DNA of 64,000 nucleotides from Desulfolutivibrio sulfoxidireducens (GTDB lineage Bacteria > Desulfobacterota > Desulfovibrionia > Desulfovibrionales > Desulfovibrionaceae). Of this stretch, positions 11,318 through 18,574 are shown in pieces. The notes below the pieces were generated by a model. That model did not search any database and was not told where the DNA came from. It was given only the letters and a program-made list of their open reading frames with translations. Each line of letters starts with the position of its first letter. Position 1 is the stretch's first letter. Position numbers and translations under genes: made by a program. The DNA is taken from the NCBI RefSeq assembly GCF_013376475.1, contig NZ_CP045508.1:3508001-3572000 (forward strand), written 5' to 3'.

Positions 11318-11731
11318 TCACCGCCACGGGCCAGGGCCGGGACCGGGGCCGGGACGCCACGGGCCAGGGCCGGGACCAGGGCCGGGACGCCACGGACCAG
11401 GGCCGGGGCCGGGACGCCACGGGCCAGGGCCGGGGCCGGGACGCCACGGGCCGGGGCCGGGACCCCATCCCGGCGGCGGGGGCGGCGGCCCCCACGGACC
11501 GGGCCCCCATGGGCCTGGTCCGTATCCCGGGCGGTAGACGTACGGGGGCGGCGGGGGTGGATACCCAGGTCCGTAGTACATCGGCGGTGGCGGCGGCGGC
11601 CAATAGCCCTGGGCGTACACCGGACCGACCCCGATGAAAAACGGGATATCGATGGTCAGGGCCTTTGCCTCCACGACGCCAAGGGAAAGGATCACACACG
11701 CCACGGCACAGATGCCCGCGATCGGTCTCAT
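11318..11731 (-). CDS. Exported Pro/Gly/Trp-rich repeat protein
   Basis: A protein of 137 residues: signal peptide MRPIAGICAVACVILSLGVV, a short ITIDIP-like segment (LTIDIPFFIG), a PPPPPP/tyrosine region, then near-perfect tandem repeats of PGPGPGPWR to the C-terminus. The start is fixed by AAAGGAGG just upstream. Low-complexity Pro-rich exported proteins of this sort are usually cell-envelope components of unknown role. A second small Pro-rich protein at 16521-16820 shares the TIDxP segment. The repeat tract is prone to length change by slippage. No function is assigned. Confidence 0.7.
   Translation of the reverse strand: MRPIAGICAVACVILSLGVVEAKALTIDIPFFIGVGPVYAQGYWPPPPPPMYYGPGYPPPPPPYVYRPGYGPGPWGPGPWGPPPPPPGWGPGPGPWRPGPGPGPWRPGPGPGPWRPGPGPGPGPWRPGPGPGPGPWR
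11321..11470 (-). repeat. Tandem coding repeats (PGPGPGPWR units)
   Basis: The 3' end of the 11318-11731 gene consists of tandem units of about 27-33 bp, each with CGCCACGGGCC or CGCCACGGACC followed by GGG/CCGGG runs. Variation in copy number between strains would be expected. Confidence 0.7.
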
Positions 11732-16520: not shown

Positions 16521-16820
16521 CTATCGGATGATGATCGGCGGCACGTCGATGGTGATGCCGTAATGGGGAGGCGGCGGCACCGGACGGCAGGCGCCGTGCC
16601 CCCAGTAGGTTCCAGGCGGGCAGGGCCGTGGATAATACGGATCGTAATACGGCGGGGGCGGTGGAGGTGGCGGCGGGGGCGGTCCGTAGGGCATGCACCC
16701 GTAGGGTCCTTCCCAATAATATCCCGGGGGGCAGGGCCTGCGGGCCTGCGACTCGCCCGCCGTCAGAACGGCGGCGGCCACAAGTCCCAGGCACAACAAC
16801 GCCAGTGCAACCTTCTTCAT
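16521..16820 (-). CDS. Small exported Pro/Tyr-rich protein
   Basis: A protein of 99 residues: signal peptide MKKVALALLCLGLVAAAVLT, two CPPG-Y-W/Y repeats (CPPGYYWEG and CPPGTYWGH), a polyproline-tyrosine tract between them, and the C-terminus GITIDVPPIIIR. The TIDxP segment recurs in the 11318-11731 protein. The start at 16820 is preferred over ATG 16826 because GGAG abuts 16826 but is 6 bases from 16820. Four Cys in two CPPG loops suggest disulfides. Function unknown. Confidence 0.7.
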   Translation of the reverse strand: MKKVALALLCLGLVAAAVLTAGESQARRPCPPGYYWEGPYGCMPYGPPPPPPPPPPPYYDPYYPRPCPPGTYWGHGACRPVPPPPHYGITIDVPPIIIR

Positions 16821-16822
16821 GG

Positions 16823-17140
16823 TCATCTCCTTTCCTTTGCGGCCTGTGCGGCCCGCATGCGGGCGGGCGGCGGCATGCCGTCCCGGCCCGGTTGACGCCT
16901 CATAGCAGCATCCGTATCTTCTGCAAGACCCTCTCCAGGGATGAAAATCGGCCAGACATGCGGATTCTCGGCCCTAGCCAGCCAGGCTCCGCACTTCGCA
17001 AGACGCGAATCGCGCGCCCGGCGAGGGAAAAAATCGTCATCGCGGCGCAGGCCCTCCCACGCGACCTCCGGCCGGACCGGTGTGGCGCCGAAGCGGTTTT
17101 TGGGATAGGACAGCCAAAAATCACAAGGCAGGTTGTCCAT
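16823..17140 (-). CDS. Possible ORF overlapping the start of a divergent lipoprotein gene (doubtful)
   Basis: About 105 codons starting MDNLPCDFWLSYPKNRFG. The first 80 residues have protein-like composition with Trp, Phe, Tyr and Lys, unlike most shadow frames in this genome. Its stop lies 3 bases before the start of the 16820 gene, which would permit coupling. Against it: no strong ribosome site, no recognised family, and a start that overlaps the divergent lipoprotein ATG. If this ORF is not real, the stretch 16821-17138 holds no gene that I can see. Confidence 0.25.
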   Translation of the reverse strand: MDNLPCDFWLSYPKNRFGATPVRPEVAWEGLRRDDDFFPRRARDSRLAKCGAWLARAENPHVWPIFIPGEGLAEDTDAAMRRQPGRDGMPPPARMRAAQAAKERR

Positions 17141-17303: not shown

Positions 17304-17502
17304 CCCCGCGTCTTCCGCCAGACCCGTTGTCCGGGCCGGGTACAAGAAACTATACCTGGCTCGGACATGGCTTGATGGGGGACCAAATTTTTTTACCCGC
17401 CAGACCCCCTTCCGGCCCCGGCGAAAGCCCCGCTTCTGGGTGTGGTTTTTCAACATCTTGAAATGAAACGTTATTTATCAAAAAGAGGCAGTTTGACAGA
17501 CC

Positions 17503-17520
17503 TTGGCACGATCCCTGCTA
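17503..17520 (+). promoter_or_regulatory. Sigma-54 (RpoN) promoter of small RNA 1
   Basis: TTGGCACG-ATCC-CTGCTA matches the -24/-12 consensus. GG (17505-17506) and GC (17517-17518) are separated by exactly 10 bases, which is obligatory for sigma-54. The predicted +1 is 17530, the first base of the block shared with small RNA 2. Confidence 0.75.
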
Positions 17521-17529
17521 TATCTGTTT

Positions 17530-17600
17530 CATCCTTCCTCTGAAAGAAATTTCAACGCAAAACGGCTTTGGGGTGGCTCCCCAAAGCCGTTTTGCGTTTC
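17530..17600 (+). ncRNA. Predicted RpoN-dependent small RNA, copy 1
   Basis: About 70 nt. The 5' part starts (C)AUCCUUCCUC, a pyrimidine tail complementary to Shine-Dalgarno sequences. A small hairpin follows (UGAAA-GAAA-UUUCA, with a GNRA-type loop, 17541-17554), then a perfect 20-bp hairpin (17554-17573 with 17579-17598, loop UGGCU) ending near a short U-rich stretch. The first 29 nt are identical to copy 2 and the large hairpin differs only by compensatory changes. No start codon or ribosome site fits. Function unknown; a base-pairing regulator is inferred from the tail. Confidence 0.7.
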
Positions 17601-17917
17601 CCGCCCGCGCCTCTCCCCCCGCTTCACGCGGCCTCGGACAATACCCAGACCACACGCGGTTTCGCCCCCATCCCGGCCACCGACGGTCCAAAGCCCTTCC
17701 CGACCGGCAGCGCCGTTAGCCCAGCCGGGACGCCCATCCGGCCCGGCCTCGGCCGGCCTCTTCCCCCCGGCCTCGGCAGCGGCCATGGCGACCAGTACAA
17801 TTCCTTTTACGGCCCAGCCCCGACATTGCCCTGGCCAACCCGCTCAAACAGGAGTCACCGCACAATAACCTTTTAAAATAACAGGATAAAATTTTTCACG
17901 CGGGCATTTTCCAGGTC
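17601..17917. other. Spacer between the two small RNAs
   Basis: About 317 bases without a convincing gene. The plus-strand frames here are proline-rich, lack ribosome sites and begin inside the promoter or RNA. The last 40 bases, before promoter 2, are AT-rich, as upstream activator or IHF regions often are. Confidence 0.5.
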
Positions 17918-17934
17918 TTGGCACGCCTCATGCT
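17918..17934 (+). promoter_or_regulatory. Sigma-54 (RpoN) promoter of small RNA 2
   Basis: TTGGCACG-CCTC-ATGCT has GG (17920-17921) and GC (17932-17933) separated by 10 bases. The predicted +1 is 17945, one base before the conserved block starts, matching copy 1 to within one base. Confidence 0.75.
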
Positions 17935-17944
17935 AAGAAGAAAA

Positions 17945-18021
17945 GCATCCTTCCTCTGAAAGAAATTTCAACGCGGAACGGCTTCGGGGTGGCTCCCCGA
18001 AGCCGTTCCGCGTTGCGTTTC
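17945..18021 (+). ncRNA. Predicted RpoN-dependent small RNA, copy 2
   Basis: Same architecture as copy 1: identical 5' 29 nt (17946-17974) with the AUCCUUCCUC tail and UGAAA-GAAA-UUUCA hairpin (17957-17970), then a perfect 20-bp hairpin (17970-17989 with 17995-18014, the same UGGCU loop) and GCGTTTC beyond it. Relative to copy 1, three base pairs change on both sides (A-U to G-C twice, U-A to C-G once), so pairing has been maintained. Nothing recognisable lies between its end and the gene at 18278. Confidence 0.7.
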
Positions 18022-18277: not shown

Positions 18278-18574
18278 TCAGCGCGTGGAGGTGGTGGTCG
18301 TGGAGGTGGTGGTCGTGGCCGCCTGGTTGGCCGCTTCCTCGGCGGCGCTGATGGCCGCGTAGGCCGCTGTCAGGCAACTCGAATAGGACCTGTCGCAGGC
18401 GATCTGGCATTGCTGGCGTTTGACGAAATCGGATGTGCCCTGGCATTTCAGGATGCACTGGGTGGAGGCGGTGTTGCAGTCGCAGATCGGGCAGCCTGAA
18501 TCCAGGGCATGGGCCCAGCCCGCGCCGAGGGTCAGCCCGAAAAAGGCGGCTGTGAGGGCAAAGAGGTATTTCAT
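18278..18574 (-). CDS. Small exported Cys-rich protein with Thr/Ser tail
   Basis: A protein of 98 residues. The signal peptide MKYLFALTAAFFGLTLGAGW likely ends at AHA. The mature part has eight Cys in a CPxCDC...QC-x3-C...QC-x3-C...C pattern, suggesting disulfides or metal binding, and a low-complexity C-terminus AATTTTSTTTTSTR. I do not recognise the family. It may be a periplasmic or surface protein; the Thr/Ser tail could be a linker. A GAACCATCC-type leader gives only a weak ribosome site (AAGGATGG). Confidence 0.65.
   Translation of the reverse strand: MKYLFALTAAFFGLTLGAGWAHALDSGCPICDCNTASTQCILKCQGTSDFVKRQQCQIACDRSYSSCLTAAYAAISAAEEAANQAATTTTSTTTTSTR

Follow-up and report, generated by a model that had tools for sequence, protein, structure and literature searches.

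Two neighbouring intergenic units in the 4.16-Mb genome of Desulfolutivibrio sulfoxidireducens raise the question of what kind of RNA they encode, which regulator might switch it on, and which mRNAs it might act upon. The window analysed here is a stretch of 64 kb, to which all positions refer unless stated otherwise. A sequence-only reading had described the units as tandem homologous small RNAs (sRNAs), each with a sigma-54 promoter and of a sequence not previously described; the upstream palindrome and the complementarity of the 5' ends to porin ribosome-binding sites (RBSs) treated below are absent from that reading, which proposed no function.

Copy 1 carries the -24/-12 box TTGGCACG-ATCC-CTGCT at 17503–17519 (plus strand; TTGGCACGATCCCTGCT), and copy 2 carries TTGGCACG-CCTC-ATGCT at 17918–17934 (plus strand; TTGGCACGCCTCATGCT). 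In both, the spacing of GG and GC is exactly 10 bases, as had been claimed, and a strict scan of both strands with TGGCA[CT]-N5-NTGC[AT] returned only these two matches in the window. Both promoters combine a box of the TGGCAC-N5-TTGCW type with an upstream activator site (UAS). A block of 29 nt (CATCCTTCCTCTGAAAGAAATTTCAACGC) is identical in the two units (17530–17558 and 17946–17974) and begins precisely where the sequence-only reading had placed it, namely at the predicted +1 of copy 1, which lies 12 nt beyond the C of the -12 element, and at +2 of copy 2. The block is followed by hairpins with the make-up of intrinsic terminators (A-tract, GC stem, and T-tract), which comprise 19 bp in copy 1 (17555–17597, plus strand; fold z-score -9.1; RNA -38.5 kcal/mol) and 21 bp in copy 2 (17969–18015, plus strand; fold z-score -8.2; RNA -45.4 kcal/mol). 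The predicted products are sRNA 1 of about 70 nt (17530–17600, plus strand) and sRNA 2 of about 72 nt (17945–18018, plus strand), whose 5' end is single-stranded in the predicted fold and contains the predicted target-pairing segment (CAUCCUUCCUCUGAAAG in sRNA 1; the same segment starts at 17946 in sRNA 2). The window as a whole contains neither a tRNA nor any Rfam family. The locus is flanked by open reading frames (ORFs) for short, secreted-looking proteins at 16521–16826 and 18278–18574 (both minus strand; Pro/Tyr-rich and Cys-rich with a Thr/Ser tail), neither of which has a Pfam match; a further ORF at 11318–11700 (minus strand) encodes long Pro-Gly-rich repeats (GPGPGPWRPGPGPG).

Each of the other two sequenced species in the genus has this tandem pair at the corresponding locus, and the neighbouring genes match in the one sister species that was read through. 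Among the copies of the genus, the boxes have been retained together with the 5' block and the loop of the hairpin, while much of the other sequence has diverged, and an alignment of six copies contains compensatory changes in the hairpin. The pair is not a product of chance, because it is kept at the same locus in both sister species and its boxes are retained amid mostly changed surroundings. A covariance model that starts at +1, and so leaves out the promoter, yielded at least three matches in each of the 14 genomes of genus g50. All of the 22 g50 matches listed carry TGGCA[CT]-N5-NTGC at the expected distance, and the same is true of the matches in genera g38 and g43, so that the expectation that homologues in relatives should have a -24/-12 box 12 bases upstream is borne out by the confident matches in these three genera. 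Weak matches of model R1 in several other genera (L024, L025, L026, L028, L032, and L033) were excluded from the count, as they represent plain terminator hairpins that lack a promoter.

When promoter and 5' end were joined into a single family pattern, it was found in 142 of 288 genomes of Desulfovibrionaceae; the same pattern in reversed form, which served as control, gave four matches. At the level of the class, the pattern occurs in 146 of 348 genomes, some of which belong to two other families of the order; the members in the four genomes from these families also have a strong hairpin and the upstream palindrome. Copies occur singly, as tandem pairs, or as triplets, often with two to four per genome, and the hairpin was better than -10 kcal/mol in all 76 members tested. 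A scan of genome contigs for exact 22-mers led to one metagenome-assembled genome of a sister species; the matches in Rahnella, Vibrio, and Terrimonas are unrelated and lack a sigma-54 box. SecA, which served as a protein query for locating the region, had no match in viral contigs. The sRNAs of the window matched no Rfam family at the gathering score, and hits with E-values up to 10 comprised only chance hairpin matches and no Qrr; a description of the family was not found in the literature searched either, which agrees with the earlier judgement that the sequence is undescribed. The matches of the promoter-free model likewise support the proposal of tandem homologous sRNAs with sigma-54 promoters. 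From these sequence features we infer that the two units are transcribed, and they very probably represent genuine sigma-54-dependent sRNAs, members of an unnamed family of trans-acting sRNAs that appears to extend across Desulfovibrionales.

Alignment of the regions upstream of the promoters revealed a palindrome of 16 bp, GTACAAAATTTTGTAC, that is common to the members of the family and usually located 80–125 nt before the promoter. Its median best score is 18.0, compared with -3.3 in shuffled upstream DNA, and its distances to TGGCAC cluster near 82, 91, 106, 115, and 124 nt, which corresponds roughly to steps of a helical turn; some copies in genera g35 and g38 have weak sites or none. The four top-scoring sites of the entire 64 kb are all situated upstream of the two sRNAs. 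They comprise the distal palindrome of copy 1 (GTACAAGAAACTATAC, 17340–17355; score 17.0, top in the window), which reads GTACAAGAAACTGTAC and GTACAAGAATCTGTAC in the sister species, and a proximal site of the same copy (GACCAAATTTTTTTAC, 17381–17396; score 7.8, fourth), which can be aligned in the sister species and is conserved there. Copy 2 has a palindrome 124 nt before TGGCAC (GTACAATTCCTTTTAC, 17795–17810) with a modest score of 12.6 (second) and possibly another site (GGATAAAATTTTTCAC, 17884–17899; score 10.5, third), which may instead belong to an AT-rich element. The claim that the two neighbourhoods differ outside promoter and RNA must therefore be qualified, since upstream activator-site palindromes are a feature that the surroundings of both copies have in common. 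Many members have a conserved AT-rich element between activator site and promoter, which in the window lies at 17452–17486 (copy 1; similar aligned sequence in six copies of the genus and in other members) and at 17867–17900; it could possibly be a bend or an IHF-type site.

Sigma-54 promoters require an enhancer-binding protein (EBP), and the palindrome GTACAAAATTTTGTAC is a putative binding site for such an activator. The window genome encodes approximately 32 confident EBP domains. The idea that the gene of the activator adjoins those of the sRNAs or porins failed, and most members have no EBP gene beside them. A membrane-bound EBP of 855 aa (GAFTEA) was discarded as activator, since many sRNA-bearing genomes lack it (at least 11 that are more than 95% complete). 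The remaining candidate is a response regulator of the NtrC type that carries a GSFTGA motif; it consists of a receiver (PF00072), a sigma-54 AAA+ (PF00158), and a Fis-type helix-turn-helix domain (PF02954), is present in 203 of 205 high-quality genomes of the family, and adjoins a histidine kinase in the window genome. It appears to be of the DVU3220 type. Apart from DVU3220 and DVU1083, no response regulator is reported to be conserved throughout Desulfovibrio; an electrophoretic mobility shift assay (EMSA) showed binding of DVU3220 to the operon of the ammonium transporter, DAP-chip gave no data for it, and it was tentatively assigned to nitrogen control (PMC3333781), which counts against its role as activator of the sRNAs. 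It is listed with GSFTGA but without a binding motif (PMC4641369).

The chances that this nearly universal regulator activates the sRNAs are about even. That the role falls to another EBP (e.g., of the DVU1419, DVU2359, DVU0653, or DVU0679 type), or to different EBPs in different genera, is a somewhat more tentative proposition that nevertheless deserves serious weight: these four EBPs control four sigma-54-dependent non-coding RNAs (ncRNAs) in D. vulgaris Hildenborough (PMC4641369), the window genome offers many other EBP domains, and the GSFTGA regulator was not found in the sRNA-bearing draft genome G114. The sharing of one palindrome across genera, however, argues for a single conserved regulator, and most members have no EBP gene in their vicinity. 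Moreover, the 1.4-Mb genome G143 has kept the sRNA and its activator site but possesses only two true EBPs, namely the GSFTGA regulator and the 855-aa protein, which its absence from other sRNA-bearing genomes disqualifies. If the GSFTGA regulator is indeed the activator, the sRNA family would reveal the binding motif of a nearly universal protein for which none has been reported.

A strict search of the genus for the palindrome missed most sRNA sites, because these have more than three mismatches, yet it pointed to porin promoters. It led to tandem genes of outer-membrane proteins whose start regions read GGAGGAAGGA, shortly followed by ATG, a sequence complementary to the 5' end UCCUUCCUC of the sRNA. 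In the window genome, GAGGAAGG-N2-7-ATG occurs at only 23 sites, seven of which contain GAGGAAGGA; GAGGAAGGA-N1-6-ATG is likewise restricted to seven sites, and three of the seven belong to three tandem porin paralogues at 903–907 kb of the genome. The predicted target proteins were assigned to NF033939 (DESULF_POR1, outer membrane homotrimeric porin) with 363–623 bits (NCBIfam cut-off 250); no Pfam domain was recognised in the porin. The name of NF033939 is in use for the homotrimeric porins of Desulfovibrio. DVU0799, the major porin of D. vulgaris, has been characterised biochemically in a paper that does not treat RNA regulation (PMC5686591).

Porin homologues were gathered from 17 genomes, and their start regions were compared with the sRNA of the respective genome. 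Because every Shine-Dalgarno region somewhat resembles the pairing segment, controls matter. The porin RBSs of eight genera form 9–17 contiguous pairs with their own sRNA, whereas the mean of 130 control start regions is 6.8. Duplex energies range from -17 to -26 kcal/mol; the exceptions both come from genus g42, with one porin at -8.3 kcal/mol, a poor pairing partner, and another at -16.8 kcal/mol; the means of the controls are -8 to -14 kcal/mol in most genomes. When the sRNA sets were swapped among the eight genera, a fit equal to that observed was reached in 20 of 40,320 permutations, a procedure that treats the genera as independent. The genus effect is absent from the control start regions under the same permutation, with the control sets of four genera being small (0–4 sequences). 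In most genera, the Shine-Dalgarno region tracks the local sRNA, as illustrated by UACCUUCUUUCUUUUAC with GUAAAAGAAGGAAGGUUUA in G169, AUCUUCCUUUUUUUGC with GCAAAAAAAGGAAGAUUU in G247, and ACCUUCCUUUCUUUGC with GCAAAGGAAGGAAGGG in G060. In the genus of the window, there are 11–12 pairs, and the fit is little or no better than with the sRNAs of other genera, so the case for the porin target rests on the other genera. Conserved complementarity to porin RBSs, as it is known from sRNAs of the MicA/RybB type, is thus a property of the family, and its co-variation among genera makes porin mRNA a probable direct and conserved target.

The sRNAs could also be genuine and sigma-54 driven but use their CU-rich 5' end as a generic anti-Shine-Dalgarno mimic on many mRNAs or on ribosomes, so that porins are just one fit among many. 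In a sub-group of genus g38 (L105, L077, L079), the 5' end GATCACCTTCCTTTCTTT indeed closely resembles, by inspection, the 3' tail of 16S rRNA, and porin RBSs retain duplex energies of about -15 to -19 kcal/mol when the sRNA sets are swapped. Such a generic role is nevertheless unlikely, considering that the pairing runs past the Shine-Dalgarno core (into GCAAA or the like) and shows co-variation between genera, that control start regions with good Shine-Dalgarno sequences pair far worse and lack genus specificity, and that GAGGAAGGA before the ATG of full-length genes is nearly confined to porins in the window genome. Two further observations concern the targets. In G040, two tandem sRNAs (L064) with different 5' ends occur together with two tandem porins (L170, L187) with different RBSs, hinting at a co-evolution paralogue by paralogue in which only one pair is clearly preferential. 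At L142:1512 (G000:C1:184 kb), the start region GAGAGGAAGGGACATG of a sigma-54 response-regulator gene is complementary to the seed of the sRNA, and this gene is a possible second target.

The palindrome is also associated with the porin genes themselves. Among 14 porin neighbourhoods of 19 kb each, 11 contain activator sites with a score above 17, and every such site is located at a porin gene or a short distance before it. In the genus of the window, it lies upstream of a porin promoter of the sigma-70-like type (TTGCCA-N17-TAAAAA; assigned by inspection). At L133, L126, L131, L137, and L140 (genus of the window) and at L214–L227, the palindrome precedes the sigma-70-like promoters of DESULF_POR1 genes and is sometimes doubled at an offset of 17 bp. 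DESULF_POR1 paralogues are expanded in certain genomes (15 matches in G284 and 8 in G276), with the activator palindrome at only some of them. The same regulator may therefore also act on porin transcription, and the location of the sites suggests a direct effect of either sign, in which sRNA and porin would form a feed-forward pair.

Taken together, porin synthesis would be controlled as follows. An EBP bound to the upstream GTACAAAATTTTGTAC palindromes, most likely the GSFTGA response regulator of the NtrC family that is encoded next to a histidine kinase in the window genome, would activate the -24/-12 promoter and give rise to an RNA of approximately 70 nt that, judging from its structure, would end at the terminator hairpin. 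Its single-stranded, CU-rich 5' end (UAUCCUUCCUC.., UACCUUCCUUUCUUUUGC.., or CAUCUUCCUUUUUUGC.., depending on the member) is predicted in silico, with co-variation, to pair with the Shine-Dalgarno region of the mRNAs for the major outer-membrane porins, the segment CCUUCCUC being the predicted porin-pairing part, which should block the binding of ribosomes and lower porin synthesis. In the window genome, this would take place without Hfq, because a search for PF17209 found none there; the controls were positive in 5 of 14 cases. A family of sigma-54-activated, Hfq-independent sRNAs that block the translation of porins is, on the whole, a likely reading of the locus. A more far-reaching proposal, put forward with reservation, is an order-wide circuit of porin homeostasis, in which the response regulator that is best conserved among Desulfovibrionales (DVU3220 type) would drive multi-copy, Hfq-free sRNAs via sigma-54 and also bind the sigma-70 promoters of the same porins, while sRNA 5' ends and porin RBSs would co-evolve in each genus and in places for each paralogue.

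The position of one member might instead suggest a role of the units as 5' leaders or as attenuators for adjacent genes, since in genus g42 a speB-like ORF in the same orientation follows shortly after the sRNA. Free sRNAs are by far the better explanation, and leaders very improbable, as each unit ends in a terminator-like hairpin, copies occur in tandem, the neighbours vary between genera, and the next likely gene downstream in the window, the 98-aa ORF at 18278–18574, is on the opposite (minus) strand.

Among known systems, the ncRNAs of D. vulgaris come from the same bacterial family and also have sigma-54 promoters. Unlike the sRNAs described here, they are under the control of four different EBPs, with Dv_sRNA2 being the one under DVU0679 (PMC3333781); the comparison is one of descriptions, as their sequences are not given there. 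The parts of the two reports available to us do not state a shared sequence family, a palindrome, a family-wide distribution, or a porin target (PMC4641369, PMC3333781). If one of these ncRNAs is a member, part of the family would already have been seen in the form of single ncRNAs. The literature searched yielded no trans-acting sRNA of a sulfate-reducing bacterium with an assigned target; the family would supply one, with a promoter logic of its own and with a predicted target, the porins, that decides what crosses the outer membrane.

The resemblance to Qrr1–5 of Vibrio, which are activated by LuxO and sigma-54, is one of architecture: both have sigma-54 promoters with upstream activator sites, paralogous copies, a conserved pairing segment, and an intrinsic terminator. 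That the units are themselves Qrr-type quorum-sensing RNAs under a LuxO-like activator can be dismissed almost entirely, since the multiple copies, the sigma-54 dependence, and the CU-rich pairing segment that they share are outweighed by the lack of any sequence or Rfam relationship, a genome without Hfq, and a predicted target that is a porin RBS rather than an mRNA of the luxR/luxO type. The activator sites differ as well: LuxO recognises TTGCA-N3-TGCAA, and such sites, a feature of Qrr, are not found here, where the shared palindrome is GTACAAAATTTTGTAC.

In their predicted repression of outer-membrane protein mRNAs by pairing with the RBS, the sRNAs resemble MicA, RybB, and VrrA, the sigma-E-dependent sRNAs of enterobacteria and Vibrio, of which VrrA is described, in the part of the report available to us, as not strictly dependent on Hfq (PMC2628432). 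They differ from these in having a sigma-54 promoter with an enhancer site instead of a sigma-E promoter, in their unrelated sequence, and in belonging to another bacterial order. The family is thus wired like Qrr and aimed like MicA and RybB but is a member of neither group, and it would show that an envelope response in the style of sigma-E can run on sigma-54 and without Hfq.
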